From positions 1 through 64,000 of the forward strand of contig JAPYOP010000013.1 of NCBI GenBank assembly GCA_029938115.1: a DNA stretch of 64,000 nucleotides. Reading direction: 5' to 3'. Below, piece after piece: positions 47,850 to 64,000 of this stretch (within the stretch, counting starts at the first letter, position 1; each line of letters opens with the position of its first letter). The stretch comes from Colwellia sp. (GTDB taxonomy: Bacteria > Pseudomonadota > Gammaproteobacteria > Enterobacterales > Alteromonadaceae). Both the position numbers and the translations under genes were made by a program. Below the pieces are notes generated by a model. It saw only the letters and a list, made by a program, of their open reading frames with translations. It was not told where the DNA came from and did no database searches.

Positions 47850-49223
47850 CTAGGCCGCAGAAACAATTAACTCTTCATTGATATCGCACATTACTATTTC
47901 TAACTCAGCAACAACGCCCTGTAATAATTGTTTGAAGCTATCGAACTGCTGTTCATTAATCGCTGTATCAAGTAACTTTGCAGCTTCAAATAAAGGCATA
48001 GCCCCAACTGAACATGCCACACCTTTAAGTGTATGAGCTAAGTGTTTCGAAGCTTGAAAGTCATTGCATTTGATTGCACAGCTAAGTTTACTTGCATCAT
48101 GATGATGGTCTTGATAGAACATTTTTAATATATCTTTATATAACTTTTCGTCATCTAGAACATTGCTCATACCCAATTTCACATCAATACCTTCTATCGC
48201 AAAAACAATACTCAGTGCATTTGAATTTAAACTTTCTTTTTCTTGAATAAACTGTTTTTCTTCTGCTGTATATTCACTTCTATCACCTAAAGTAACGATG
48301 TCATTATCAAGTAACTCGTCTGCATTAACGACCTGATTACGCCCATGAGCTTTGGCATGATATAAACCAATATCAGCTTGTTTGAGTAAACAAGCCATAT
48401 CTAAAGAAACACTGCTACTTGAAGATACACCTATACTTACAGTGATACCGACTTCTTTCTTTGAACCGTTATTTAGCGGAATTCTCATGTATTCAATACT
48501 GGCACGGAACCTTTCGCATGCATTAAAAGCATCATCAATTGATGTGTGAGGTAAACACACCGCAAACTCTTCACCACCAATACGCGCAACAATATCATAA
48601 TTTCGAAAACATTCAGTTAAACGCTTAGCAAAGGCAATCAGTATTTTATCACCTATATCATGTCCATAATCATCATTAACAACTTTAAAGAAATCAATAT
48701 CTAGCATTGCTATTACTAACGGTTGTTCAGTGCGTTGTGCTTGGCTTACTGCACTGCTCGTTTGCTCATCAAAGCATGCTCTGTTATTAATGCCGGTTAG
48801 AAAATCAATTTTAGCCAGATCTTCTAAGATTTTTGTTTTCTCCCTTAACCGTAATGCTGTTCGCATGCGTGCAAATAATACTTTCCTTATATAAGGCTTA
48901 ATAACGTAATCATCTGCACCTAACTCTAATGACGATACAACCCCCTCCTCTGCATCGGAAGACGATAGCATTATCACAGGAATCATTTGCCAATGAACAT
49001 TATTTTTCAAACGCGCTAACGTCGCTAAACCTGACAAACCGGGCATGTGCATATCAAGTATAATTAAATCAATATCGGTTGAGTCTAAAATAGATAAAGC
49101 TATTTCACCTGAGCCTGCAGAAATAACGTCACAACCTGCCGCTTGCAAATCGAATGAAAGAAGCATTTGGCTGTCTTTGGCATCGTCTACCACAAGGATT
49201 CTATAATGTTTATCAAAGATCAT
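47850..49223 (-). CDS. REC-GGDEF-Hpt response regulator
   Basis: Output protein of 457 residues. REC domain 7-125 with phospho-acceptor Asp57; GGDEF domain about 135-300 with active motif GGEEF at 216-220 and inhibitory site RNYD at 207-210; C-terminal Hpt domain with His397 in HTLKGVACSVGA. It should make cyclic di-GMP under phospho-control, and the Hpt domain could relay phosphate from the hybrid kinase encoded just upstream (31-base gap). Last gene of the chemosensory cluster. Confidence 0.93.
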   Translation of the reverse strand: MIFDKHYRILVVDDAKDSQMLLSFDLQAAGCDVISAGSGEIALSILDSTDIDLIILDMHMPGLSGLATLARLKNNVHWQMIPVIMLSSSDAEEGVVSSLELGADDYVIKPYIRKVLFARMRTALRLREKTKILEDLAKIDFLTGINNRACFDEQTSSAVSQAQRTEQPLVIAMLDIDFFKVVNDDYGHDIGDKILIAFAKRLTECFRNYDIVARIGGEEFAVCLPHTSIDDAFNACERFRASIEYMRIPLNNGSKKEVGITVSIGVSSSSSVSLDMACLLKQADIGLYHAKAHGRNQVVNADELLDNDIVTLGDRSEYTAEEKQFIQEKESLNSNALSIVFAIEGIDVKLGMSNVLDDEKLYKDILKMFYQDHHHDASKLSCAIKCNDFQASKHLAHTLKGVACSVGAMPLFEAAKLLDTAINEQQFDSFKQLLQGVVAELEIVMCDINEELIVSAA

Positions 49224-49254: not shown

Positions 49255-51435
49255 TTACTTAGCTAAAAACTCGGCAAGTTCTTTAGAGTTAAATGGTTTA
49301 CGTAACACTGGATATTCCCAACTTCGATCTTCAATGGCAATATAACCACTAATTGAATATACATCTATTTCTGGAAACTTATCCTTAACCATATTGACAG
49401 CTTCACGACCTGATAGATCAGGCAAAATCATATCCGTAACGAAAATATCAAATTCACTATTTTGTTCAATTGTGTCAATTAATTCCTCTTTAGTGTTTGC
49501 CATAACCACATCAGCTCCTTTGCTTTCAATAAATAAAGCGACAAACTCAGCAATACTAATCTCATCATCAAGAACTAAAACTTTTTTCCCTTTGAGCTTG
49601 CTATTATCTTGAACGTTTTCAGTAACTTTATATCGCTCTTTTAACTCTCGGCATTTAAAAACCAAGGTGAAATGCGCGCCACCTAATTCACTTGTGCCTT
49701 CAACCTGAATTTGTCCATTATGTTTGTACATGGTGTTATAAACATTGGCTAATCCAATGCCATTCCCTTTGTTTACAGATTTAGAACTATAAAAAGGATC
49801 AAATATTTTAGTTAAATTTTCTTCCTGTATACCTATACCACTGTCTTTTACATGTATTTCTAACCGATTGCTTGCTGACAAGTTAGCTGAGACCTCTATT
49901 TGCCCACTTAAACCTTTTTCTTGAATAGCATCTTGCGCATTAAGTACTAAGTTAAGTAAAATATTTATGAACTCTCCTTGTGGAAAATTTATAATGCAAT
50001 GCATAGGTTCAAACTTAAAGTTCATGCTAATAGTACTTAACAATAACTGCTTAAATAGGTACTTATTATCTTCAATATCTTGAACCGGATCAAAGCTCAC
50101 TACTTTGATTGTTGGTTTTCGAGTAAAGGCTAACAACCGTTCGGTAACACTTTTCCCCTTATCAATAGCATTTTTCACTCGCTCTATATAAGTTGAAATA
50201 TTTTGATCACCACGAGCAAACTTCATTTCTAACATTTCAATGGCACCAAGCGCTACGCCCAATACATTGTTTATATCATGTGAAACATTTCCGAAGGTAT
50301 TGCCTAATAAAGCTAAACGATTTGATATAATTTGCTGTTGTTCTTTTCTGAATTTGTCAGTGACATTTTCAACTATCCAAATATAAATCCCTTCATCTGG
50401 TTCATAAGTAACCGACAAGTCAAAGACAGTATTATATTTATCAAAACTAACATTAGATTCTTTTATCTGCCCTTGTAACATCGCTTTCTTTTTGTAATTC
50501 ATATATTCAGTGATGCTGAAATTAATGTAATTAAACAGCACTGAACTTTCATTATCATGATGTGGTGAAATATCTTGATATACCACATTGTCGTTATCAT
50601 CAATAAAAAATATTGGCACTTTTATCGTTAAGTTAACCATGGCTAACAGTTTAAGTTTTTCAAAAATATTTTCTTGTCGTGAAATATCTTTTACAACGCC
50701 AAATAAACCTTGTGCTACGCCATTGTAATCAAAATCAATTTCAGCAATCACCTCGAGCTTCACTTTTGAACTATTACTTTTTTTAATAGCTCCTTTAAAG
50801 TATAAAGGGGTTAAATCTGTAATAGTTACATTCATTTTTTCTTTGAATGAATTGCAATCTTTATCAATAAATAAAGCAGCAATATTATCAAGTGTAGGGG
50901 TGAATGATTGTTCAGAAAGTCCGTGTATGCGGTAAACTTCAGATGACCAACTAAACGTTGTCTCTTTAAAATCATAACGCCAATGTCCTAAATTACTCAC
51001 TCTTTCAGTTAACGAAAGCCAATCATTTTGTTTTTTTAACTGTGAATATATTATTTTACTGTCAGTAATATCTTTAACTGTGCCAAAAATCAAACTAGCA
51101 CGGTCACCATTATATTCAATGATTTTAGCTACCGCGTGAATCCAAATGGTTTTATCATTGTTTGTTTTTAGTGGGTAAGACACATCCACATTATTGACCT
51201 CACCTTTAAGGTGACGTTCAAAATGTTGAAATATTTCAGTTAAATGTTCATCTAAAAAGTGTTTAGGCCAAAACTCTCTTGAGTCTTTAAATGCTTTTGC
51301 TTTATAACCTAAAAGCAACATCAATTGAGCTGAATAAAAAACGGTATCTTGCTCAAGATCCCATTCCCAATAAGCCTCATCGACCCCTTCAAGTAACTTG
51401 TGGGCATACTCAAAACTGAGTGAACGTGGCTTCAA
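49255..51435 (-). CDS. Soluble PAS hybrid histidine kinase
   Basis: 726 residues without clear membrane spans: three PAS-like regions (about 13-125, 140-255 and 262-360), HisKA with His386 in NVSHDINNVLG, an ATPase domain (LNLVLNAQDAI, DSGIGI, NGIGLANVYN), and a C-terminal REC domain with Asp668 in FVTDMILPD. The start is TTG, overlapping the preceding stop (TTGA) with GAGGA nine bases ahead. The next Met is 38 residues in, inside the first PAS, so TTG is supported. A REC-to-Hpt relay to the next protein is likely. Confidence 0.9.
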   Translation of the reverse strand: MKPRSLSFEYAHKLLEGVDEAYWEWDLEQDTVFYSAQLMLLLGYKAKAFKDSREFWPKHFLDEHLTEIFQHFERHLKGEVNNVDVSYPLKTNNDKTIWIHAVAKIIEYNGDRASLIFGTVKDITDSKIIYSQLKKQNDWLSLTERVSNLGHWRYDFKETTFSWSSEVYRIHGLSEQSFTPTLDNIAALFIDKDCNSFKEKMNVTITDLTPLYFKGAIKKSNSSKVKLEVIAEIDFDYNGVAQGLFGVVKDISRQENIFEKLKLLAMVNLTIKVPIFFIDDNDNVVYQDISPHHDNESSVLFNYINFSITEYMNYKKKAMLQGQIKESNVSFDKYNTVFDLSVTYEPDEGIYIWIVENVTDKFRKEQQQIISNRLALLGNTFGNVSHDINNVLGVALGAIEMLEMKFARGDQNISTYIERVKNAIDKGKSVTERLLAFTRKPTIKVVSFDPVQDIEDNKYLFKQLLLSTISMNFKFEPMHCIINFPQGEFINILLNLVLNAQDAIQEKGLSGQIEVSANLSASNRLEIHVKDSGIGIQEENLTKIFDPFYSSKSVNKGNGIGLANVYNTMYKHNGQIQVEGTSELGGAHFTLVFKCRELKERYKVTENVQDNSKLKGKKVLVLDDEISIAEFVALFIESKGADVVMANTKEELIDTIEQNSEFDIFVTDMILPDLSGREAVNMVKDKFPEIDVYSISGYIAIEDRSWEYPVLRKPFNSKELAEFLAK

Positions 51436-52646: not shown

Positions 52647-54386
52647 TTAATGTTTGATGTTATGCCAAACATAGCTGGCCGAGACTAAAGTACCGTTATC
52701 TTGGTAGTCTAAGGTGTCACACAGTTGGTTTACTAACTCTATGCCACGTCCACTTAAATTTAGGCCCTTATCTTGTGCATAACTATTACTTTTTAAGACA
52801 TTAAAAATGTCGAAACCTTCACCACTGTCTTTAATGCTAATAAACATTTTTCCACCGTGACTAAATGGAAAATAATAAAGTTCGATACGAACAAAGCCAT
52901 CAAGTAAATATTCTAAACGCTTTGAGCGTTCTTTATAGTACTGACTAAACCCTTCAGCAGAGTTTTTAAGAGAAGAGTCCATACCTAGCACCCCATGATC
53001 TAATGAATTAATAAACAGTTCAGTAATAATGGTGTACAAACTTTGCCAATGCTCACCGGCACCTTCAATATCATTTATTTGGTTCATGATAATGGGGATT
53101 GGATTTACACTAGCAAGTAATTTATCGGTTAGTTCTAACTGCCATGACCAACTAGGAGAGGTATTATAAAAGGCTTCTTCTACAATAAAGGTTTCTGGCA
53201 TTTGAGGTTGATTAGCTTTATTAATGGATTCACTTTCTTGCCAGCCTGAACAAGGAACATCAACAAGGGACATATCATCTTCCAGAGGCATACTTTTACA
53301 AAAGTTTTTTAATCTTAATGCAACTTTTGTGGCTATATCACCATTTAATAATCCCTTCTCTGCTGCCTGTTCGAAATGCAACACGCCAAACTCTTGCCCT
53401 TGTTCATTTCTAGCTTCAATAATACCATCCGTTATTAATACAAACCTATCGCTAGCATCCACAGACACAATGGCAAGTTCAATATTAATAATAAGTTTAG
53501 GCAAAATTCCTAGCGGCGGATGAATAGATTGAAAACGATGCTTAATGACACCTGATTGAGAAAAAAGGTAGCCATCCGGTAAGCCCGCATTAAATACATA
53601 TAAGGATTTATCATGCTCTGAAATACAAGCAAAACACGCGGCAAAAAATAAATCTTTAGGCAATAAATCACATAACTGCTTATTAATTTGTGCAATTATG
53701 TCTAAGATAGAAAAACCTTTTTTTGTCATTGCTCTAAAAGTTTCAGTAACGGGTATGGCACCAATAGAAGCTCTTAAGCCATGTCCGGTAAAATCGCCTA
53801 ACAAAACGTGTATATCGCCATTTGGGCATAACGATGTTAATTGCATGTCACCACTAAAAATAGTAGCAGCTTGTTTAATAACGCTTATTTTATTTAAAGC
53901 AAAATTTCTAGACTCTATCACATCAGACATAAGCTTTTCAGCCAGTTCAGCATCTTTTTGCTGTTCTTGCTGCAATTTTTTAACTTGAAAATATAAATCA
54001 CTTATTCGTTGAATCGACTTTATTTTTGCTTTAAAGACTTGCGGAGAAAAAGGTCTAACTAGAATGCCATCTCCGCCAGCTTCAACACTATCTATATAAG
54101 ATTGTTCGGTATCCATGCTGGTTATAAAAATTAATGGGGCTAGGTTTTCTTTACAAATATTTTTTATTCGACGAGTTGCTTCATAACCATCCATCACTGG
54201 CATGTTTATATCCATCAAAACTAAGTCGGGTTGATACTCAACATACATTTCAACACCACAAGCGCCATCATTAGCAACAACAACTTGATAGTTTTCTTCC
54301 TTTAAAAGCGCAGACAGCATCATACATTGCGTCATAGAATCATCAACTACGAGTGCTAATTTTGCATGTGTGTTAATATTTGTCAT
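52647..54386 (-). CDS. REC-PP2C-HATPase partner-switch regulator, HsbR/CrsR-like
   Basis: 579 residues in three domains. REC with Asp59 in LVLMDINMPVMDG; SpoIIE/PP2C phosphatase (about 165-380) with GDFTGHGLRASIGA, LITDGIIEARN and EDDMSLVDV; and an RsbW-like ATPase/kinase (about 430-579) with TELFINSLDHG, DSGEGFDI and GRGIELVNQL. The same architecture is known in P. aeruginosa HsbR and Shewanella CrsR, which dephosphorylate or phosphorylate a STAS partner. That partner is encoded 18 bases upstream. Confidence 0.93.
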   Translation of the reverse strand: MTNINTHAKLALVVDDSMTQCMMLSALLKEENYQVVVANDGACGVEMYVEYQPDLVLMDINMPVMDGYEATRRIKNICKENLAPLIFITSMDTEQSYIDSVEAGGDGILVRPFSPQVFKAKIKSIQRISDLYFQVKKLQQEQQKDAELAEKLMSDVIESRNFALNKISVIKQAATIFSGDMQLTSLCPNGDIHVLLGDFTGHGLRASIGAIPVTETFRAMTKKGFSILDIIAQINKQLCDLLPKDLFFAACFACISEHDKSLYVFNAGLPDGYLFSQSGVIKHRFQSIHPPLGILPKLIINIELAIVSVDASDRFVLITDGIIEARNEQGQEFGVLHFEQAAEKGLLNGDIATKVALRLKNFCKSMPLEDDMSLVDVPCSGWQESESINKANQPQMPETFIVEEAFYNTSPSWSWQLELTDKLLASVNPIPIIMNQINDIEGAGEHWQSLYTIITELFINSLDHGVLGMDSSLKNSAEGFSQYYKERSKRLEYLLDGFVRIELYYFPFSHGGKMFISIKDSGEGFDIFNVLKSNSYAQDKGLNLSGRGIELVNQLCDTLDYQDNGTLVSASYVWHNIKH

Positions 54387-54404: not shown

Positions 54405-54713
54405 CTAATGCTGAATAGTCATTAATCGGTGAAACTGAGCTATTTCTAGAATTTTATTTACCGTATCACTCGGCTTACTAATAACCAGCTTACTCGAATG
54501 TAAATCTACATGATCTTTTAGAAGTAAAATCATACCCAAAGCAGAGCTATCCATATAATCTGTTTCACTTAAATCTAAAACATAACTCATGTGCTTATCC
54601 AAGCAATGACTATAGGCATCGCGAAATTGCTGATGCAGTGAAAAGTCAAAGCGCTCATTAACACTTATAATAACCTGATTATTCTCTTGTGAAATATTGC
54701 AGTTTACAGACAT
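54405..54713 (-). CDS. STAS-domain anti-sigma factor antagonist, HsbA/CrsA-like
   Basis: The 102 residues form one STAS domain. The phosphorylation motif DYMDSSALGM has Ser56 and Ser57; Ser56 is the regulated residue in P. aeruginosa HsbA. A good ribosome site (AGGGAGA) is present. It is expected to be switched by the HsbR-like protein encoded next to it and to bind an anti-sigma factor. CrsA in Shewanella acts on RpoS; HsbA acts on FlgM and a diguanylate cyclase. Which output applies here is unknown. Confidence 0.92.
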   Translation of the reverse strand: MSVNCNISQENNQVIISVNERFDFSLHQQFRDAYSHCLDKHMSYVLDLSETDYMDSSALGMILLLKDHVDLHSSKLVISKPSDTVNKILEIAQFHRLMTIQH

Positions 54714-54762: not shown

Positions 54763-55314
54763 CTAAAATAAGTCTACACTACCCTCATCCATCGTTAATT
54801 GTTTTACACTTCTAGCATCTTCAGTTTGCTTGGTTTCATAATAAATCTTTTGACACCTGTCCTTTAATGCGAGTAGTTGTTCATGAACAGGGGTTTGCTT
54901 ATTTTGTTCGAAGCTAATCAAAACATCACTGATATCATGTATGCTTTGAATATTAGCCTCTAAAGACTCTAATGATTGTCTGGTTAAATCTTCAAATTGT
55001 AAGGAGCGAACGCCTTGAGAAACAGCCTCAGCAATTTTCGGTGAAATACCGGCTAATGTCTTTATAACTTCAGTGATATTACACTCTACTCCAGCTTGAA
55101 TGACTGTTTGCTGGTTAGTCGTTAAGGTTTGTAAATCTTTGAAACTTGATGAAATATCCCCAACAGCCTCTTCAACAATTAGTCGGGTTCTATTAAGCTC
55201 TGCTTCTATAATATTTATCTCTTGATGTAAAAACTGCTGTAATTCAAATACAACATTATGAATTAACACATTGTCAACATCGGGCATCTCTTCAAATCGT
55301 TCAACCGAAGTCAT
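54763..55314 (-). CDS. CheZ-like helical protein of the chemosensory cluster (candidate phosphatase)
   Basis: 183 residues, almost all predicted helix, no membrane span. A long helix (about 15-70), a second helical stretch, and the motif QFEDLTRQ at 106-113, with Asp109 and Gln113 spaced as in the CheZ catalytic motif DFQDLTGQ (Asp143/Gln147 of E. coli). A linker then leads to the C-terminal peptide DEGSVDLF, which recalls the CheY-binding tail of CheZ. Annotation pipelines may call it a chemotaxis or hypothetical protein. Gene start overlaps the cheB stop (ATGA). The phosphatase role is an inference. Confidence 0.65.
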   Translation of the reverse strand: MTSVERFEEMPDVDNVLIHNVVFELQQFLHQEINIIEAELNRTRLIVEEAVGDISSSFKDLQTLTTNQQTVIQAGVECNITEVIKTLAGISPKIAEAVSQGVRSLQFEDLTRQSLESLEANIQSIHDISDVLISFEQNKQTPVHEQLLALKDRCQKIYYETKQTEDARSVKQLTMDEGSVDLF

Positions 55315-56393
55315 AAAGCCTCTCTCATTTCATCTCTATTTAAGGAGGCATAGTCCAAAATTGATTTACCAATATCATTTAATGGTAACTCTAAACAATG
55401 TGCATCAATTGCATGAGCTTTACCTGGCATTCCCCAAATCAAGCTTGTATTTTTGTCTTGCACAATAGTTTTTGCGCCTTGTTTTTTCAACCTGAGCATC
55501 CCTTGCGCTCCATCTTGCCCCATACCGGTTAATAAAACGGCTTGGACATTTCCAGCAAGATCTAACAGTGAATCAAATAGAACATCAACAGCAGGTTTAT
55601 GCCGATTAACTTCTGCAGAATCAATTAAAGTACAAAACAATGCCCCGTTTTTATGAACAACTTCTAAATGTAAATCTCCGGGCGCGATATAAACATTACC
55701 TTGCTTTATTTTTTGACCATGACTCGCTTCATGAACTTGCATTGGGCATAGTTCATCTAAACGCTTAGCAAAACTTAAACTGAAACTCTTAGGAATATGC
55801 TGTGCAATAACTATTGGTGGTGAATTTTCAGGCATAGTTATCAACAGTTTTTTAAGTGCTTCTGTGCCGCCCGTTGAAGCGCCAATTGCCACAATATGAT
55901 TACTTCGTTTAACTCCTTCAAAATTATGTACATTAATACTTTCAAGGCTATCTTTAGTTAAGTTAGAACTTAGTTTAAAGTTTTTTTGATCTACGGTGGC
56001 AGATTGAGTTATTTTATAAATCAATGTTTCCTTGAAACTATCTTTTGTAGCTAATAGCTCTTGAACACTGGGTTTCGCAATGAAATCTACCGCCCCAAGT
56101 TCAAGTGCTTGCAGAGTGATATTGGCACCTTTCGTTGTTAGCGTCGAAAGCATAATGACAGGCATGGGTCGTAAGCGCATTAAATTAGTAAGAAAGGTAA
56201 TGCCATCCATTTTGGGCATTTCTACATCAAGCGTTAAAACATCAGGATTTAATTTTTTAATTAACTCACGAGCTACAATTGGATCTTCAGCTTCTCCCAC
56301 AACCACAATATTAGGCGCTTGACTCAGTGCATCCTTAATTATGTTACGAATAACCGTTGAATCATCAATTACTAACACCTTAATGGTACTCAT
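55311..56393 (-). CDS. cheB: Chemoreceptor methylesterase/deamidase CheB
   Basis: 360 residues: REC with Asp56 in TLDVEMPKMDG, then the methylesterase domain with the triad Ser (GASTGGTEAL, about 173), His (AQHIPKSFS, about 199) and Asp (GMGQDGAQGM, about 292). It removes methyl groups added by CheR, and is active when phosphorylated by CheA. Ribosome site GGAAG lies before ATG. Confidence 0.97.
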   Translation of the reverse strand: MSTIKVLVIDDSTVIRNIIKDALSQAPNIVVVGEAEDPIVARELIKKLNPDVLTLDVEMPKMDGITFLTNLMRLRPMPVIMLSTLTTKGANITLQALELGAVDFIAKPSVQELLATKDSFKETLIYKITQSATVDQKNFKLSSNLTKDSLESINVHNFEGVKRSNHIVAIGASTGGTEALKKLLITMPENSPPIVIAQHIPKSFSLSFAKRLDELCPMQVHEASHGQKIKQGNVYIAPGDLHLEVVHKNGALFCTLIDSAEVNRHKPAVDVLFDSLLDLAGNVQAVLLTGMGQDGAQGMLRLKKQGAKTIVQDKNTSLIWGMPGKAHAIDAHCLELPLNDIGKSILDYASLNRDEMREAL

Positions 56394-56487: not shown

Positions 56488-57147
56488 TTAAAACAGTTCC
56501 ACGTCTCCATCTACTTTAGTAGATTCAATTTCACTACTGTAATCTGTTTCACGTTTAACAATTGTATTGTTATGCAAGTTATCTAATCGTTTAACAAATG
56601 CTCGACCATTGTGAGGAACAAATAAAATTTTTCTAGGATAAATATCACCTAAATCAGTACTTTCTATCTCAATCCCTTCTTGAGCCAAGTAATCAAAAAC
56701 AAAATCAATATTTCGCTGACCAACATCAGACATTTGTTTTAGTACTTTTCCGCCACCAAATAATTTTGCTTTTAAATTTATTCGTCTACCACCACATTTT
56801 AAAATTTCATTAATTAAGTGCTCCATAGCATAATTACCATAACGTGTCGCATCAGTTAGTTTATCTCGGCTCCCCCATGTCACTTCATGACGTTTTTTGT
56901 CAGTGACAGGCAACATAAAATGGTTCATGCCACCAATTTTAACCCGGCTATCCCAAATACATGCTGAAATACATGACCCTAATGTGGTTGCTATAGCTAC
57001 ATTGCCAGTAGTCATGTAAAACTGGCCAGGCAAGATTTTTGCAACCACAATATCTCGTTGCTTATCCCAGTAATGATTAATATGGCTGAACTCAGGTAAA
57101 CACTTTGCCATACAGGCTTGTACCATTGGGTGTTTATCTCGACTCAC
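56488..57147 (-). CDS. cheD: Chemoreceptor glutamine deamidase CheD
   Basis: Deamidates glutamines on chemoreceptors. The catalytic Cys is in TLGSCISACIWD (about 59) and the His in GGMNHFMLP about 17 residues later; a Thr/Ser is expected in the FGGGKVL region. The longest frame begins at TTG 57165; the GTG at 57147 has GAGG five bases ahead and is preferred, and an ATG at residue 8 of that frame is another option. The protein ends DGDVELF, an acidic tail that resembles two other proteins of the cluster. Confidence 0.93.
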   Translation of the reverse strand: MSRDKHPMVQACMAKCLPEFSHINHYWDKQRDIVVAKILPGQFYMTTGNVAIATTLGSCISACIWDSRVKIGGMNHFMLPVTDKKRHEVTWGSRDKLTDATRYGNYAMEHLINEILKCGGRRINLKAKLFGGGKVLKQMSDVGQRNIDFVFDYLAQEGIEIESTDLGDIYPRKILFVPHNGRAFVKRLDNLHNNTIVKRETDYSSEIESTKVDGDVELF

Positions 57148-57173
57148 ACTTCCCTCACTTTTCAATAGACTGC

Positions 57174-57234: not shown

Positions 57235-58095
57235 TCATAGTGGTTTTCTAAAAACAGTTCGCCCAACATTATCGAAATGCTGCTGGTAAGCGCCTAAATT
57301 TTCACTATGTCCCAACATTAACAGGCCACCTGGAGCTAATAAATCATAGTACCGAGTGAATAACTCTTGCTGTGTCGGTTTATCAAAATAAATAATCACA
57401 TTGCGACAAAAAATAACATCAAAAGGTCCTTTCATTGGCCAGTCATGCAATAAGTTCAATTGCTTAAAGGTTATCAAGTCACTCAATCCTTTATTAACCT
57501 TTATGTTATTTTCATTTTCTCCAAAACCACGCTTAAAGTATTTGTGTTTAAAATCTTCATTAATATTTTCAATTCGCTTGTACTCATAAACACCTGTTTT
57601 TCCTTTAGCTAAAACATTTGAATCAATGTCGGTGGCAAGGATTTTTACATCCCAAGCAGATAACTTTTTGTGCATAGTTTCTAATACTGTTATGGCAATA
57701 CTATAAGGCTCTTCGCCAGTAGAGCTTGCGGAAGACCATATACGTAAACGCTTTTTACCATTAGCTTGCACATTTCTGTTCTTCATTAACCGTGGCAACT
57801 CTTCGGTTGCCAAATAATCAAAATGATGCTGTTCTCTAAAGAAACTAGTCAAATTAGTGGTAATAGCATTAATAAAATAGTCTTTTTCTTGTTCTCCATG
57901 ATTACGCAATAACTGACAATAAGCGCTAAATGATTTAAGTTTACGTTCTCTAACTATACGAGTAAGGCGGCGGTACACCATTTCACGCTTATTATCATTG
58001 AGTACTATCCCTGTAGACTGATAAACAAACTGACATATAAAATTAAAATCTTCATCTGTCAGTCGTACCGCTGTATCTCGAGTATCTTTAATCAT
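57235..58095 (-). CDS. cheR: Chemoreceptor methyltransferase CheR
   Basis: SAM-dependent methylation of receptor glutamates. The 286 residues have the N-terminal helical domain (DFNFICQFVYQSTGIVL, TNLTSFFRE), the SAM motif IWSSASSTGEEPYSIA, and FDVIFCRNVIIYFD. The receptor encoded six bases upstream ends in a WxxF pentapeptide, the docking site for this type of CheR. Ribosome site GAGGAA falls inside the receptor stop region, so the two are coupled. Confidence 0.97.
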   Translation of the reverse strand: MIKDTRDTAVRLTDEDFNFICQFVYQSTGIVLNDNKREMVYRRLTRIVRERKLKSFSAYCQLLRNHGEQEKDYFINAITTNLTSFFREQHHFDYLATEELPRLMKNRNVQANGKKRLRIWSSASSTGEEPYSIAITVLETMHKKLSAWDVKILATDIDSNVLAKGKTGVYEYKRIENINEDFKHKYFKRGFGENENNIKVNKGLSDLITFKQLNLLHDWPMKGPFDVIFCRNVIIYFDKPTQQELFTRYYDLLAPGGLLMLGHSENLGAYQQHFDNVGRTVFRKPL

Positions 58096-58101
58096 TAGTA
58101 A

Positions 58102-60873
58102 TTAAAATTCCTCCCATTCTTGATCGCTAGCTGTTTGGATTCTTGGCACTGACTTCGCTTTAGCTCGTTGAGGTCTTTTCGTTGCTGTTCTTGGTTTTCT
58201 TCTAACAGGTGTTTCAATTTGTGGCTCTTCTTCTTCGCCATTATTGAAGAATGCTACTTGATCTAGCAGTGCTTGTGATTGCTCTTCCATTGATTTACTT
58301 GACGCAGCGGCTTCTTCAACTAATGCAGCATTTTGCTGTGTCATTTCATCCATTTGACTAACGGCGGCACTAACTTCGCCAATACCGGCAGACTGTTCTT
58401 TACCTGCGCTATCAATATCACTAATCATGTTGCTAACGTTTTCAATTGAAGAGACTAACTCTTCAAATGTTTTGCCTGTTTCGTCAACTAGTTTAGTTCC
58501 TTGCCCAACGGCTTCAACACTGTCATTTATTAATCCTTTAATTTCTTTAGCTGCACCTGCTGAGCGTTGAGCTAAGTTTCTCACCTCAGCGGCCACTACC
58601 GCAAATCCTCGTCCTTGCTCTCCTGCTCTTGCTGCTTCAACTGCAGCATTTAAAGCAAGTAAATTGGTTTGGAAAGCGATTTCATCTATGACACTAATGA
58701 TATCCGCGATTTTTTTACTGGATTTGTTAATGTCGCTCATGGCGGTAATTGCGTTACGTACAACCGCGCCACCATTGGTTGCTTTTTCCATAACAGAGTT
58801 TGAAAGCTTACTAGCTTCAGTCGAATTTTCTGCATTTTGTTGCACTGTACTTGTTAATTCTTCCATTGCAGAGGCTGTTTCTTCTAAGCTAGATGCTTGT
58901 GATTCTGTTCTATGACTTAGCTCATTATTACCTTGAGCAATTTCACGTGCCGAATCAAAAACATTCGTTGAAGCACCACGAATTTCATCGACCATATTAC
59001 TTAAGTTATCCATAGAGCCATTCATGGCATTGGCTAAGGCTAAAAATTCACCGCCATAACCATCGCGCATACTTTGCGTTAAGTCACCTTCTGAAAGCGC
59101 TTGCGCTACATTAATGGCATCAGTTATGGGATCTACAACGGCATTCATTAATCCATTAATATTTTCACCTAAATCTTTCATAAAACCTTGGTAATCATCA
59201 GTAGTTATTCGACTATCTAATTTACCTGAGGTAGCATCATTAATAAGACCCTCAATTTGCGTTTGAGCATCATTTTCTTCAGTTAAATCTAACCATTGAA
59301 CGGCAGTGCCAACATGTTCTCCCTCTTCATTTGTTAATGCAATACCAATTAAGCTAAAGGTTAATCCTGCGACAGATATCTCAGTGGTGTAGGGTAAATT
59401 AGCGGGATTTGATAATAAATTTTGTTGATGTGCAGGGTTCTTATGAAAGGTATCAAAATTAGTCCCAACCATACTGTCCACTCTAAACGCAGGTAAAACC
59501 GCTTGCAATTTCGCTTCTCTTCGTCGTAACATCGCTATAACAGCTGGATTAGCATAAACAATTTTACCGTCCCTATCAGACATCATAATATTAGTTGTCA
59601 TGCCTTCAACTGCAGAAGTCAAACGGCCTACTTGTAAAGATTTTTCTCTTATTAATGTAACATCTTGCCATTCTAGTGAATTGCCGATGTACTCACCACT
59701 GGCATTCATAATTGCGGTAACATTTAATCGAAAGACTAAATGTTTGATTTGAATGTCAGTTGAATAAGGTAACTTATTTGGATCATCCAACATTTTACGT
59801 TGATGAGCAGGGTTTTTATGAAAGCTGTCGATATTAGTGCCAATAATCATCTCGGGGTCAGCTTTAAAACCCGGCCAATTTTGTGCGAAGGTTTCTTCAT
59901 GTTCTTTTAAAAGGCTCAAAGTTGCTTCATTGGCATAAGTGATTACAAAATCTCTATTAATCATGATAGTCGCAGTAGCTGACTGGTCAATTGCACCTTG
60001 TAATTGTGCTGCTTTGTCTTCTTGTTCACGAGATAAAGTAATATCTTGCCATTCAAGGCTATTGCCAATATACACACCATTGCCATCTAAAATAGCGCTA
60101 ACATTTAGCTTAAATATTAAATGTTTTATTTGAATTTCAGTTGAATAAGGCAAGTTATTTGGATCATCAAGCAATCGACGTTGATGTGCAGGGTTTTTAT
60201 GAAAGCTGTCAATATTTGCACCCAAAATCAGTTTTGGATCGGCTTTAAATCCTGGCCAATTTTGAGCAAAAGTCGCTTCGTGTATTTTTAATAAAGCTAG
60301 CGTTGCATCATTAGCATAGGTAATAATAAAATCCCTATCGATCATGATAAAAGCGGTAGCTGATTGATCAAGTGCACCTTGCAATTGTATAGCTAAATCA
60401 TCCTGTTTTTCAGTTTTAGTGGTTTTCATGTCCATAGTAGATCCTTTTTCACTGTTAATTTTTTCCGCAGCTTCAGCTGCTTCAATCATTGTGGTTGCAA
60501 GGGTTTTATATACTGCTGTCCAAGCTTTTTTTATCCCTGGTGTAAACTCTTTATCTAAACCAATCGCTAAGGTTTTAAGTAGGGCTGCGCCTACCGTGTC
60601 ATAATGTTCAGGTTTAGTACCATAAGAGACATGTCGGGCACCTAATTTTTGTACCGCTGGAATTAACTTCTCTGGTTCATTAAGCAATTTAACGGCAGTA
60701 TCTAACATGGACATTAATTTTTTGCCCTGTTCAGCCATATCATTTGGGAATAAATCCTTCAATGAGGGATCCATTTCAAAAAGTGTAGTGTAAAATATAT
60801 CCGCTGCTTGTGGCGCTATAGGTAATACTTTGGTCCAGCTTTCTTGCACTAAACTTACTTGTTTGGGAGTCAT
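58102..60873 (-). CDS. Soluble chemoreceptor: globin, three PAS-haem-like domains, two HAMPs, MCP
   Basis: 923 residues, no membrane span. Globin at 1-135, of the single-domain/flavohaemoglobin type: TyrB10 at 28, PheCD1 at 42, GlnE7 at 49 and the proximal His at 81 (ARHVSYG). PAS domains at about 163-281, 290-408 and 415-532 each hold FHKNPAHQ (His225/230, His352/357, His477/482) and, exactly 50 residues after the first His, a Trp (275, 402, 527). This matches the haem His234, His239 and oxygen-related Trp283 of P. aeruginosa Aer2. Two HAMP-like units (about 537-625) lead to the signalling hairpin (tip at [20 protein letters not shown], 731-750). A basic linker ends in the CheR-docking pentapeptide EWEEF. 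Gene position matches aer2 in F7 clusters. Confidence 0.93.
59278..60387 (-). repeat. Three tandem PAS-coding repeats within the receptor gene
   Basis: Units at about 60031-60387, 59650-60006 and 59278-59631. Units 1 and 2 are alike over nearly their whole length ([14 protein letters not shown] against [14 protein letters not shown], and [12 protein letters not shown] against [12 protein letters not shown]); unit 3 keeps FHKNPAHQ and the end but has diverged. The DNA around the FHKNPAHQ codons is nearly identical in units 1 and 2, a sign of recent duplication. Confidence 0.85.
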
Positions 60874-60938: not shown

Positions 60939-61475
60939 CTATACCTTTTCTATTTCATCTTCATTTGCTTTTATTACTGATTGCTCTTCAATATTGCTTT
61001 GGTTAGCTTCAGCTTTGTCAATACAATATAAATCGTCTTCATTGAGTAACACTTTACTGTCGAGCAAAATAATGAGTTTTTCTTCTATTGACGCTAAACC
61101 CTTTAAAAAGCAACTATCAATGTTGTTACCAAAGGCTGGTGCTTTTCGAATTGATTTATTATCAAATTTATAGACTTCTGAAACGGCATCAACAACAATA
61201 CCAACAACCATAGTGCGTTCATTAGACTGATGGCGTAATATAATGGTGACTGTTTGCTCGCTATATTCCAGAGCCTCTTTGCCAAAACGCAGTCGTAAAT
61301 CAATAATAGGAATGATAACGCCACGCAAATTAATAACGCCTTTTATATAACTTGGTTTATTCGGCAATTCGGTTACTGAGCTCCACACTCTAATTTCTTG
61401 TACACACAGAATATCCACGCCATATTCTTCACCTTGTAGCATAAAGGTAAGATATTCTTGTTCTATTTCAGCCAT
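60939..61475 (-). CDS. cheW: CheW coupling protein, copy 1
   Basis: 178 residues. It links receptor tips to the CheA kinase. Core motifs EYLTFMLQGEEYGVDILCVQEIR, IKGVINLRGVIIPIIDLRLRFG and GIVVDAVSEVY fill 5-150. A polar, acidic tail of about 25 residues follows. It lies between the second cheW and the receptor gene, with a GGGAGA ribosome site. Confidence 0.96.
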   Translation of the reverse strand: MAEIEQEYLTFMLQGEEYGVDILCVQEIRVWSSVTELPNKPSYIKGVINLRGVIIPIIDLRLRFGKEALEYSEQTVTIILRHQSNERTMVVGIVVDAVSEVYKFDNKSIRKAPAFGNNIDSCFLKGLASIEEKLIILLDSKVLLNEDDLYCIDKAEANQSNIEEQSVIKANEDEIEKV

Positions 61476-61493: not shown

Positions 61494-62021
61494 CTAATGT
61501 TGTAAAGTATGTTTTTCGACTTTTTGTAAATGCTCAACATTCAATAAAGTGACAACGTTTTTATCAACATTTATTAAACCTTCAACATATTGAGGCTGAA
61601 CACAACCACCAAATGCTGGAGAGCTTTGAATATCGTTCTCTTTCACATTTAATACATCTGACACCGCGTCAACAACGAAACCTATCGTTCTTGAAAAGTC
61701 ATCTACATGGTAAGTAAGCACAATGACCACAGTTGTTTCATGGTAGCTTGCTTCACCGATGTTAAACTTAAGACGTAAATCAACAATGGGAACAATAATA
61801 CCGCGCATATTAATTACACCCTTTATGTAACTTGGCGAATTAGGAATTTTAGTTGGTTGTTCCCAGCTTCTAATTTCTTCAACACAAAGAATATCAACAG
61901 CGTATTGTTCTTCCGCTAACATAAAGGTTAAGTACTGTTCACCACTGGTAATAAAATCTATTCCCTCGATTGAATGTTCACCTTCTACGGGAATGTCTGT
62001 GGCTAGATCTTGAATATCCAT
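61494..62021 (-). CDS. cheW: CheW coupling protein, copy 2
   Basis: 175 residues, about half identical to the copy next to it, with an extra N-terminal segment of about 25 residues before EQYLTFMLAEEQYAVDILCVEEIRSW. The ATG at 62021 overlaps the cheA stop by one base (TAATG); the longer frame from 62027 needs a TTG and is not preferred. Two CheW genes in tandem also occur in V. cholerae cluster III. Confidence 0.95.
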   Translation of the reverse strand: MDIQDLATDIPVEGEHSIEGIDFITSGEQYLTFMLAEEQYAVDILCVEEIRSWEQPTKIPNSPSYIKGVINMRGIIVPIVDLRLKFNIGEASYHETTVVIVLTYHVDDFSRTIGFVVDAVSDVLNVKENDIQSSPAFGGCVQPQYVEGLINVDKNVVTLLNVEHLQKVEKHTLQH

Positions 62022-64000
62022 TAGCAAAACTCTCCTACTTCACTGCTACTTTGTTGCTTTTTTTGAGCATAACTAAGTGCCATTTGAATCATTCCGGGGA
62101 TATCTAAAATCATAGCGACAGAACCATCGCCCAATATAGTGGCACCTGAAATACCTATAACCTGTTGATAATTATCTTTTAAACTTTTTATCACCACTTG
62201 TTGCTGAGCAAGTAAATCGTCAACCATTAAGCCCACTTTTTGGCCATCTGCTTCAACAACAACAAGTAAAGCATTGTCAATTTCAGTGAAATCTGTTGCT
62301 AAACCAAACAATTGATAAACAGGTAAAATTGGTACATTTTCATCTCGCAGACGATATAGGGTCATATCGCCTGAAACTTTATTAATTAGCTCTCGATCAA
62401 CTTGTAATGATTCGACAATAGAAATCAAAGGTATGATGTAAGTCTCTGACCCTACTTTCACTAGTTGTCCATCTAAGATTGCTAGCGTTAATGGCAAGTT
62501 AACTTTAAAGCAGCTTCCTTTACCAATAGCTGATTCAACCTGAATACGGCCACCTAAAGATTGAATGTTACGTTTAACAACATCCATGCCGACACCGCGA
62601 CCAGAAATATCGGTTACTTGGTCAGCCGTTGAAAAGCCGGGCTCAAATAACAAGTCGAATACTTGACTGTCTGTGAGTGTGTTATTTGGCTCTACAATGC
62701 CTTTTTCTACCGCTTTAGCAAAAACTTTTTCTCGGTTAATTCCGCCGCCATCATCTGAGATTTCAATAACGATATTACCGCCTTGATGGTATGCATCAAG
62801 TGAGATAGTACCCTTTGCAGACTTGCCATTAGCCAATCGAACATCCGCTGGCTCGATGCCATGATCTACTGCATTTCTTACTAAATGTACAAGCGGGTCA
62901 CCAATTTGCTCCATGACAGTTTTATCTAACTCAGTTTGCTCACCTTTGATGACCAATTCTATTTCTTTGCCTGTTTTATTTGCTAAGTCATGCACTAAGC
63001 GAGGAAAACGATTGAAAGCAAAACTTATCGGCAACATACGAATACGCATAACACTTTCTTGCAACTCTTTGGTGTTCTGTAAAAGTTGTTCTAGACCGTT
63101 GGTTAAACGTTCAATGTTATCCATTTGAAAATCGTTACCTAATTCAGACAACATCGACTGTGTAATGACTAATTCACCTACTAAATTAATCAAGTGATCA
63201 ACTTTATCGACACCCACCCTAATTGAGCTAACTTCAACTTTGGCTTTGGCTTTGGCTTTTGTTTTTTCCTTAGGTTTACTTGTGGTTGTTTGTTCAGTGT
63301 CAGGGCTTGGAGTGTCTTTTGTTTCAGCCACTTGTTCTTGTACTTGTACTTGTTCTTGTACTTGTTCTACGGCTAAGTTTTGTGTTTGTTCAGGGGCTTC
63401 TTGATTAATGGCATCGGCCAGTGTGATTTCTAATAAACACTCATCTTCTACCCACTCAAATACTTCATGTATGTCTTCTTTATTCGCGCTGGTTTTTAAA
63501 GTTAAATCCCAACTTAAATAAAGTTCTTGTGGGTCTATATCATTTAAAGCGGGTAACTCACTTGTGTTAGCTTTAATTGTTAATTCACCAAGTTCTGCTA
63601 ATGCATTAAATAAAAACAGCGGATCATTACCCGTTTTGGCTAAATCGTGTTCTGGAACAAAATGAATTAGATAAGTCAACAATTCATCATTTTCCTGGTT
63701 ATCCGATGCATTATTTACCGTTTGAGTTGTTTGTTCTGAATTAGTGACATTTGTTGTTTCATTACTCGCTAAGGTTTGACTTAACTCCTTAGTCGTTTTT
63801 GATACTTTATCTTCATCATAGCTTTCTTTATCTCGCGCAGCTTCAATGAGTAGTCTCATACAGTCGACAGAAGAAAGTAATATTTCGATATCTTTTTGTA
63901 CAACCTCGCGGCGACCATCTCGCATTTCATCTAATAATGTTTCAACTAGATGGGTAAACTCGGTTACAACATCAAAACCAAAGGTACCAGCGCCACCTTT
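62021..64000 (-). CDS. cheA: Chemotaxis kinase CheA, N-terminus outside window
   Basis: The open frame runs to the last base, starting KGGAGTFGFDVVTEFTHLVE, the end of the HxxKG Hpt motif, so the phospho-His lies just outside and the Met at 63925 is not the start. The visible part has a linker, a P2-like region, the dimerisation domain (DKVDHLINLVGELVITQSML), the ATPase with LVHLVRNAVDHGIE, DDGGGI and GRGVGMDVVKRNIQ, and a CheW-like P5 domain. The linker has a CTTGTW DNA repeat coding for Val/Gln/Glu and an (AK) run. Confidence 0.97.
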   Translation of the reverse strand, partial: KGGAGTFGFDVVTEFTHLVETLLDEMRDGRREVVQKDIEILLSSVDCMRLLIEAARDKESYDEDKVSKTTKELSQTLASNETTNVTNSEQTTQTVNNASDNQENDELLTYLIHFVPEHDLAKTGNDPLFLFNALAELGELTIKANTSELPALNDIDPQELYLSWDLTLKTSANKEDIHEVFEWVEDECLLEITLADAINQEAPEQTQNLAVEQVQEQVQVQEQVAETKDTPSPDTEQTTTSKPKEKTKAKAKAKVEVSSIRVGVDKVDHLINLVGELVITQSMLSELGNDFQMDNIERLTNGLEQLLQNTKELQESVMRIRMLPISFAFNRFPRLVHDLANKTGKEIELVIKGEQTELDKTVMEQIGDPLVHLVRNAVDHGIEPADVRLANGKSAKGTISLDAYHQGGNIVIEISDDGGGINREKVFAKAVEKGIVEPNNTLTDSQVFDLLFEPGFSTADQVTDISGRGVGMDVVKRNIQSLGGRIQVESAIGKGSCFKVNLPLTLAILDGQLVKVGSETYIIPLISIVESLQVDRELINKVSGDMTLYRLRDENVPILPVYQLFGLATDFTEIDNALLVVVEADGQKVGLMVDDLLAQQQVVIKSLKDNYQQVIGISGATILGDGSVAMILDIPGMIQMALSYAQKKQQSSSEVGEFC
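63238..63366. repeat. Short tandem repeats in the cheA linker
   Basis: Six tandem CTTGTW units at 63331-63366 and three CTTTGG units at 63238-63255. Both unit lengths are six bases, so gain or loss changes the linker by two residues without breaking the frame. Confidence 0.85.

Follow-up and report, generated by a model that had tools for sequence, protein, structure and literature searches.

A stretch of 64,000 nucleotides from Colwellia sp. (contig JAPYOP010000013.1, positions 1 to 64,000; hereafter the window) contains the gene for a chemoreceptor, P0001, in which a globin domain precedes three PAS domains of the Aer2 type. The sequence of P0001, its domains, predicted folds, conserved pockets and gene order are established, and on these grounds it is a real, conserved and recurring variant of Aer2 that bears a second haem-type fold; haem binding, ligand and signalling we infer. 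The favoured reading, to which a probability of roughly one half is given, is that P0001 is a soluble Aer2 receptor of an F7 chemosensory array, that the globin would act as a second gas input, and that the output would be the CrsR/CrsA partner switch. The term chemoreceptor here names the protein family, and the operon points to this partner switch instead of a proven role in taxis.

The P0001 frame begins with ATG and is open throughout its 923 residues. Pfam recognizes Globin (residues 27–129, E 1.3e-17), several PAS families, HAMP_2 (561–624) and MCPsignal (689–845), and MCPsignal is followed up by structure: where heptad class 36H is expected of an Aer2-type MCP domain, residues 655–877 align over equal length with residues 1–223 of methyl-accepting chemotaxis protein I (solved chain 1qu7). 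A CheR tether motif, x-[HFYW]-x(2)-[HFYW], is described at the C-terminus of receptors (PMC7184735), and the last residues of P0001 fit it (Table 1). The NCBIfam Aer2 model NF041847 covers residues 135–923 with 1051 bits, under its curated cut-off of 1200; because this model is named for Vibrio, the score lowers the equivalence of P0001 to the modelled proteins, not the kinship. With PAS domains that carry a His and a distal Trp, followed by HAMP, MCP and tether, P0001 is, by its sequence, an Aer2-type receptor.

Each PAS domain contains the motif FHKNPAHQ, a second His at +5 and a Trp at +50 relative to the first His (residues in Table 1), exactly as the earlier note had claimed. PAS1 and PAS2 are identical at 96 of 127 residues, and PAS3 is 37–39% identical to either. 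The pocket is conserved among relatives: in 39 receptors, two of them with eroded globins, the His ligand is present in 112 of 114 PAS domains and the Trp in all 114. The same note had compared these domains with Aer2 of Pseudomonas aeruginosa and had credited Vibrio cholerae Aer2 with two domains of this kind. In the first comparison the Trp does align with that of PAS3, across one single-residue gap, but its spacing, by the numbers of the note itself, is +49 and not 50. The second is contradicted by the solved V. cholerae Aer2 PAS domain (6ceq), which has Leu in the column of the PAS3 Trp, so the two PAS domains of that protein are not both of the FH...H and Trp kind.

Residues 1–132 of P0001 align without gaps to the globin HGbRL (E 4e-26), and the alignment to HGbI is likewise free of gaps, which places Tyr28 at B10, Phe42 at CD1, Gln49 at E7, Lys52 at E10 and His81 at the proximal position (nomenclature from PMC4476040) and bears out the pocket that had been proposed. 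The domain matches PF00042 at 8e-19 and PF11563, the family of HemAT-type globins, at E 0.09 with 13 bits, where the cut-off is 25. A HemAT-type globin is rejected on this score, as the note had also held. Helix D is absent in the predicted secondary structure. By PF00042, TyrB10, GlnE7 and the predicted lack of helix D, the globin of P0001 belongs to the single-domain/flavohaemoglobin lineage.

Residues 1–540 were modelled with AlphaFold2 from 16 sequences of the window and relatives. The mean predicted local distance difference test score (pLDDT) is 80.6 and the predicted template modelling score (pTM) is 0.34, so the domain folds are credible and their placement relative to each other is not. 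The predicted globin superimposes on O2-bound HGbI, a globin described as having very high oxygen (O2) affinity (PMC4476040), with a template modelling score (TM) of 0.95 by target length and at 1.1 Å. The predicted PAS stretches resemble Aer2 structures (6ceq, TM 0.91; 4hi4, 0.85; 3vol, 0.80), and the top structure-search rows by E-value are multi-PAS DosP chains with TM of just 0.2–0.3. There may be four haem sites per chain in two unrelated folds, as the note had anticipated, each of them a predicted site.

Conservation of the globin pocket was assessed in a genome-contig search that gave at least 587 matches, from which the 80 best loci were kept; together with the window copy they contain 24 open reading frames (ORFs) with a globin in such a receptor. 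Among the 27 globin domains of these ORFs, Tyr B10 is found in 25 of 25, Phe CD1 in 25/25, Gln E7 in 26/26, Lys E10 in 25/26 and the proximal His in 27/27, the denominators being the domains that reach each position. Three of the genomes recur in later sets (L009, L013 and L014 are taken as the genomes of L126, L131 and L132); they are kept in the counts of 24 ORFs and 27 globins and in the genome-contig operon counts, and omitted from the receptor body tree, the PAS-pocket set, the linker and divergence set and the globin tree. All five pocket residues are also kept in each of the 17 intact-pocket receptors from the same family (L124–L140). Nonsynonymous divergence (dN) of the globin from three relatives is 0.17–0.22, with synonymous divergence (dS) of 1.76 or saturated; corresponding dN values are 0.15–0.22 for PAS3 and 0.29–0.37 for PAS1, so that the globin resembles PAS3 and lies below PAS1. 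By this measure the globin is under purifying selection.

The domain order sought in other genomes, as the note had recommended, recurs in many gammaproteobacteria. A globin match at E 1e-8 is present in 55 of 118 genomes of the family, and 23 of the 118, including the window's, have the globin in a receptor at the same place of the operon; 18 of these receptors have an intact pocket (one is split by an assembly gap) and five an eroded one. In a sample of the class, 111 of 369 genomes have a globin match at E 1e-15, and in 42, again including the window's, the globin lies in a stop-free ORF of at least 592 residues. Aer2-type PAS follows the globin in all 30 of the best class loci, in one case in an ORF of just 401 residues; since none of these loci extends as far as the MCP part, their identity as receptors is read from ORF length. 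The number of Aer2-type PAS domains among relatives ranges from 1 to 7. Of 1978 matching plasmid records, 4 cover at least 80% of the receptor, and the best three (Vibrio) start at residue 144, past the globin. Two extreme architectures were seen: a receptor whose single chain combines four tandem globins with four Aer2-type PAS domains (L024:1–4599, +), and one with a single globin and seven Aer2-type PAS domains, of which PAS2–6 are 85–97% alike (L125:5035–9378, +).

The receptor gene stands in the order cheY-cheA-cheW-cheW-aer2-cheR-cheD-cheB, followed by McpA-like, STAS, crsR-like, response-regulator, hybrid kinase and GGDEF genes, and by this gene order the operon is an F7 chemosensory operon. 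The receiver-PP2C-HATPase and STAS genes are present within it, and crsR-like genes lie 3′ of cheB in 21 of the 22 family loci read (L139 is without them). The che1 locus of Shewanella oneidensis likewise holds CrsR/CrsA genes (PMC9855816). CrsR is reported to hold RpoS sequestered until CrsA is dephosphorylated (PMC6482189), and rpoS is present in the window's genome. Because CrsA/CrsR-like genes accompany the F7 operon in 21 of 22 family loci, the general stress response (RpoS) is, on gene order, a likelier output than swimming.

Classical aerotaxis would have the receptor signal through CheA and CheY to the flagellar motor, with a globin that merely widens the O2 range. Its che operon has a cheY just upstream, and Aer2 of P. 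aeruginosa, V. cholerae and Vibrio vulnificus mediates O2 responses when produced in Escherichia coli (PMC13401364). However, the genome holds two further cheA genes, one of which (contig C13), at a distance of 2–3 kb from a presumed fliA sigma-factor gene, probably belongs to the flagellar system. Overproduction of Aer2so, the Che1 receptor of S. oneidensis with b-type haem spectra, left swimming unchanged (PMC9855816), and aerotaxis roles of Aer2 receptors are called controversial or unproven (PMC13401364). The function of stage 1–2 F7 systems is likewise called unclear, and the change of F7 function is said to coincide with the replacement of Aer2-like by Tar-like receptors (PMC7184735). 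Aerotaxis is therefore considered unlikely.

A globin that stores O2 or removes nitric oxide (NO) near the PAS haems, as tethered chemistry and not as a signalling input, would agree with the TyrB10/GlnE7 pocket of the flavohaemoglobin lineage and with the flexible linker behind it. Upstream of cheY (L148:1437–6066) lie genes for a VWA protein, a truncated globin, a COX3-like and a NorQ-like protein, a possible NO-related neighbourhood, some members of which have counterparts in the Colwellia loci L010 and L012. Pfam finds VWA, COX3, CbbQ/NirQ/NorQ C-terminal and Bac_globin domains in them; NCBIfam gives no match over cut-off for any of the four, and the names NorD, NorE and NorQ are labels of our own. 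A fourth COX1-family gene (466 residues, contig C83) may be norB, and NCBIfam gives it a weak ccoN match only. Against such a role, the neighbourhood is found in just two of the six genome-contig loci of the window's type (L009–L014), on which count NO physiology is rejected as the main context. The Pfam table of P0001 contains no FAD/NADH reductase module, which leaves little in favour of the NO dioxygenase-like chemistry raised in the note. Related globins in CheW or fused to STAS, described below, point to signalling, and tethered chemistry appears improbable.

Several observations weigh against the favoured reading. Of 22 globin-bearing genome-contig loci tabulated, only 6 have crsR, and five of these six belong to the window's type, so the crsR link is weaker for the other globin-bearing type; several of these loci end early. 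The link between Che1 and RpoS in S. oneidensis was itself proposed from gene order (PMC9855816). Of four members of the genus that were searched, two lack a globin match at E 1e-8, and 58 of the 99 receptors in the body tree are labelled globin-less, so that the globin is dispensable on the scale of the family. The number becomes 57 if L129 is corrected: a run of N splits this receptor into two ORFs, and since the globin is on the front part the label is wrong. L031 is labelled degenerate in the same tree solely owing to truncation of its globin in the reading frame used. With its flexible, poorly predicted linker, the model, whose low pTM is given above, shows no evident rigid connection between globin and PAS. 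Finally, five family receptors (L141–L145) keep a globin-like domain in which E7 and CD1 are changed; the proximal His is also lost in L142 and L143, and the first helix and Trp118 stay in all five. In some lineages, the domain could thus serve without haem.

The pocket losses appear, from the body tree, to be at least two, probably three, separate events. One starred branch of that tree pairs L141 with the intact L130, another unites L142, L144, L145 and L015, and the placement of L143 has a support of 90 only. No globin was found in L015. L142, L144 and L145 have PAS_3-type domains and are without Aer2-type PAS. Selection thus seems to act on the haem pocket wherever it has been retained, although the fold can persist without it. 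That the globin is a dimerization or docking cap with incidental haem, as the haem-less globin of Bacillus subtilis RsbR would suggest (PMC4476040) and as the side lineages that lose the pocket and keep the first helix and Trp118 would allow, is the most doubtful explanation, since intact copies from two deep globin clades show no variation at Tyr B10, Phe CD1, Gln E7 or the proximal His, and a cap alone would not require such conservation.

Globins of this kind are also found in CheW and STAS proteins encoded beside such receptors. In two loci (L184:10982–11923, −; L185:5035–5976, +), a CheW protein with a globin inserted mid-protein is encoded directly upstream of a globin-Aer2 gene; no other che genes were found in these loci. 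In two others (L186:11086–12030, −; L187:5618–6568, +), a globin-STAS protein of RsbR-like order is encoded between cheW and globin-Aer2, in full che operons with STAS and crsR. In each of these four proteins the globin retains Tyr B10, Phe CD1, Gln E7, Lys E10 and its proximal His. In a model of the CheW-globin protein (mean pLDDT 68.7) the globin is confident and the CheW part poorly predicted.

The origin of the receptor globin was approached with two trees. In the body tree, made by a quick method with a long-branch warning, both globin-bearing groups fall within one half; the branch that bears the window's type also carries a globin-less Vibrionaceae clade, and the long globin-less rows L068 and L083 are nearby. 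The globin tree (132 columns, root unknown) contains only globins above 100 bits, so that eroded ones are absent, and omits L149–L153 as repeats of free globins already included. In it, the window's type groups with free single-domain globins from its own family, and the CheW and STAS globins join the other fused type (support 100). This suggests, without proving it, that the two fused types acquired their globins separately; Aer2 receptors may have gained the globin once or twice. Elsewhere in the window's genome (L146:5593–7359, −, contig C121), an AMP-binding enzyme carries a C-terminal globin.

The linkers within the sensor region differ in regularity. Between profile matches, the PAS–PAS linker is 9 residues long in 125 of 128 cases, whereas the globin–PAS linker measures 14–31 residues in 63 of 70 receptors and is longer in seven. 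The 70 include at least four duplicates with identical globins (L154/L023, L163/L033, L161/L076, L167/L047) and two receptors with eroded globins. PAS_3-type domains fill the long gap in L030, L076 and L078 (L161 repeats L076), and L135–L137 have 91–92 residues without domain assignment between the globin and the first PAS; the haem-binding His of PAS1 is replaced by Leu in L136 and L137. Much of the globin–PAS linker of P0001 has pLDDT below 50 in the model. Given fixed PAS–PAS linkers and a variable globin–PAS linker of low pLDDT, the PAS stack seems to form an in-line rod, with the globin as a cap tethered to it. In nine multi-PAS receptors compared, the front copies are alike and the last differs in seven; the exceptions are L024, in which the last three copies are alike, and L023. 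This pattern suggests that front PAS copies were repeatedly duplicated in tandem on a fixed last PAS.

The mechanism that would fit the favoured reading is as follows. The single-domain-type globin ahead of three in-line PAS-haem domains would be a separate gas input. PAS3, joined to the HAMP unit, would be the direct transmitter, and PAS1 and PAS2 would be duplicated modulators stacked rigidly on it. In V. vulnificus Aer2, all three PAS domains are reported to bind haem with similar O2 affinities, PAS3 to transmit the signal, PAS2 to regulate and PAS1 to be ‘largely indispensable’ (review PMC13401364); it is by analogy with this PAS3 that PAS3 of P0001 may be the transmitter. The globin, on its flexible linker, would bind O2, and possibly NO, with an affinity that differs from that of the PAS domains, and its dimer contacts would bias the PAS/HAMP stack. 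The array would then drive CheA and, through the CrsR/CrsA partner switch of the same operon, RpoS and the choice between sessile and planktonic life. For P0001 itself, the haem occupancy, the ligand, the difference in affinity, the direction of signalling and the output are presumptive steps of this scheme. A broader proposal, which we put forward tentatively as a possibility that may well prove wrong, is that single-domain-type globins are mobile haem-active inputs of the F7 array and partner switch (in Aer2 perhaps twice, in CheW, in STAS, and multiplied), and that P0001 would be a two-tier sensor, with a high-affinity globin over lower-affinity PAS domains, setting RpoS by O2 and/or NO.

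Should the globin prove to be a functional input, two haem folds would be combined in one receptor. Its natural variants, with the globin intact, eroded or absent, with one to seven PAS domains and with globins in CheW and STAS proteins, would then show how arrays gain and lose gas sensors. The CrsR/CrsA link makes a role for F7 testable in bacteria that do not use F7 for swimming.

The features of the receptor and its operon are collected in Table 1. The 183-residue McpA-like protein is without the membrane segment and signalling hairpin of the 395-residue protein in L124.

Table 1. Receptor domains and neighbouring genes, in window coordinates except for cheY (MCP, methyl-accepting chemotaxis protein)
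Feature	Position	Strand	Basis or remark
cheY, 122 residues, just beyond the window	L148 176–544		Upstream of cheA
cheA, 5′ end beyond the window	62021..64000	−	Pfam
cheW, first copy	61494..62027	−	Pfam
cheW, second copy	60939..61475	−	Pfam
Globin-PAS-PAS-PAS-HAMP-MCP receptor P0001, Aer2-type, 923 residues	58102..60873	−	ORF, Pfam, NCBIfam
Globin domain, residues 1–133	60475..60873	−	Pfam, alignment, predicted model
His81 codon, predicted proximal haem ligand of the globin	60631..60633	−	His in 27/27 globin domains
Linker, residues 134–160	60394..60474	−	Model (pLDDT mostly <50); length varies among relatives in linker comparison
PAS1, residues 163–280, His225, Trp275	60034..60387	−	Sequence
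PAS2, residues 290–407, His352, Trp402	59653..60006	−	Sequence
PAS3, residues 417–532, His477, Trp527	59278..59625	−	Matches V. cholerae and P. aeruginosa Aer2 PAS structures
HAMP region, residues 561–625	58999..59193	−	Pfam
MCP signalling domain, residues 689–845	58339..58809	−	Pfam
C-terminal pentapeptide EWEEF	58105..58119	−	Fits CheR tether motif
cheR	57235..58095	−	Pfam
cheD	56488..57165	−	Pfam
cheB	55311..56393	−	Pfam
Short relative of McpA-like receptor, 183 residues	54763..55314	−	Named by position and likeness
STAS anti-sigma-factor antagonist, CrsA/HsbA-like	54405..54713	−	TIGR00377 over cut-off
Receiver-PP2C-HATPase regulator, CrsR/HsbR-like	52647..54386	−	Pfam; domain order as in PMC6482189
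Response-regulator protein, 385 residues	51432..52589	−	After crsR in most family loci read
PAS hybrid histidine kinase	49255..51435	−	Pfam
Receiver-GGDEF-Hpt protein	47850..49223	−	Domain reading

The combination of domains is not new in print. Seven proteins with PAS, Bac_globin and MCP were listed among 8,075 genomes by Sharma et al. (2018; PMC6194562), who name Colwellia sp. MT41 and Glaciecola nitratireducens and propose that the combination improves oxygen sensing. The proteins of this list share with P0001 the presence of globin, PAS and MCP in one receptor, and the list probably includes the receptor type of P0001 itself. The focus of that work is Corallococcus Cc_4972, with PF01152, and the name Aer2 is absent from its text. 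A separate PF01152-type receptor behind the list is rejected, as a search of 18 genomes with fused receptors, which may or may not include the listed strains, gave no PF01152 match inside a long ORF. Among the matches listed in a search of open-licence literature, there was no report of a globin on Aer2-type PAS domains or in an F7/CrsR setting, nor of CheW or STAS globin fusions beside the receptor or of eroded forms; the paper of Sharma et al. was the nearest, and passages of PMC1457004 and PMC8396549 contributed nothing further.

The closest known receptors are Aer2 of V. vulnificus, V. cholerae, P. aeruginosa and S. oneidensis, which share with P0001 the PAS-haem FH...H motif, mostly the Trp, and the HAMP domain, MCP tip, C-terminal tether motif and F7 operon. 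In contrast to P0001, they have no globin in the architectures given in the accessible parts of the publications (PMC13401364, PMC7184735, PMC9855816). The HemAT globin-coupled sensors also join a globin to an MCP signalling domain, but their globin is of the protoglobin family PF11563 (PMC6194562) and that of P0001 of PF00042. The closest solved globins by sequence are HGbRL and HGbI of Methylacidiphilum infernorum, which have the B10, E7 and E10 residues in common with P0001; HGbRL, like the globin of P0001, is part of a fused putative sensor. In HGbRL, the E and F helices are described as fused and the sites as swapped (PMC4476040), whereas the model of P0001 has separate helices at residues 46–62 and 67–83 and, as in HGbI, Pro72 and Gly78 in this region. 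A site swap like that of HGbRL is not favoured for P0001, the monomer model having separate E and F helices. In the RsbR proteins of the stressosome, a globin feeds a partner switch, and a globin-STAS protein adjoins globin-Aer2 in L186 and L187; unlike RsbR, P0001 would act, if at all, through CheA.

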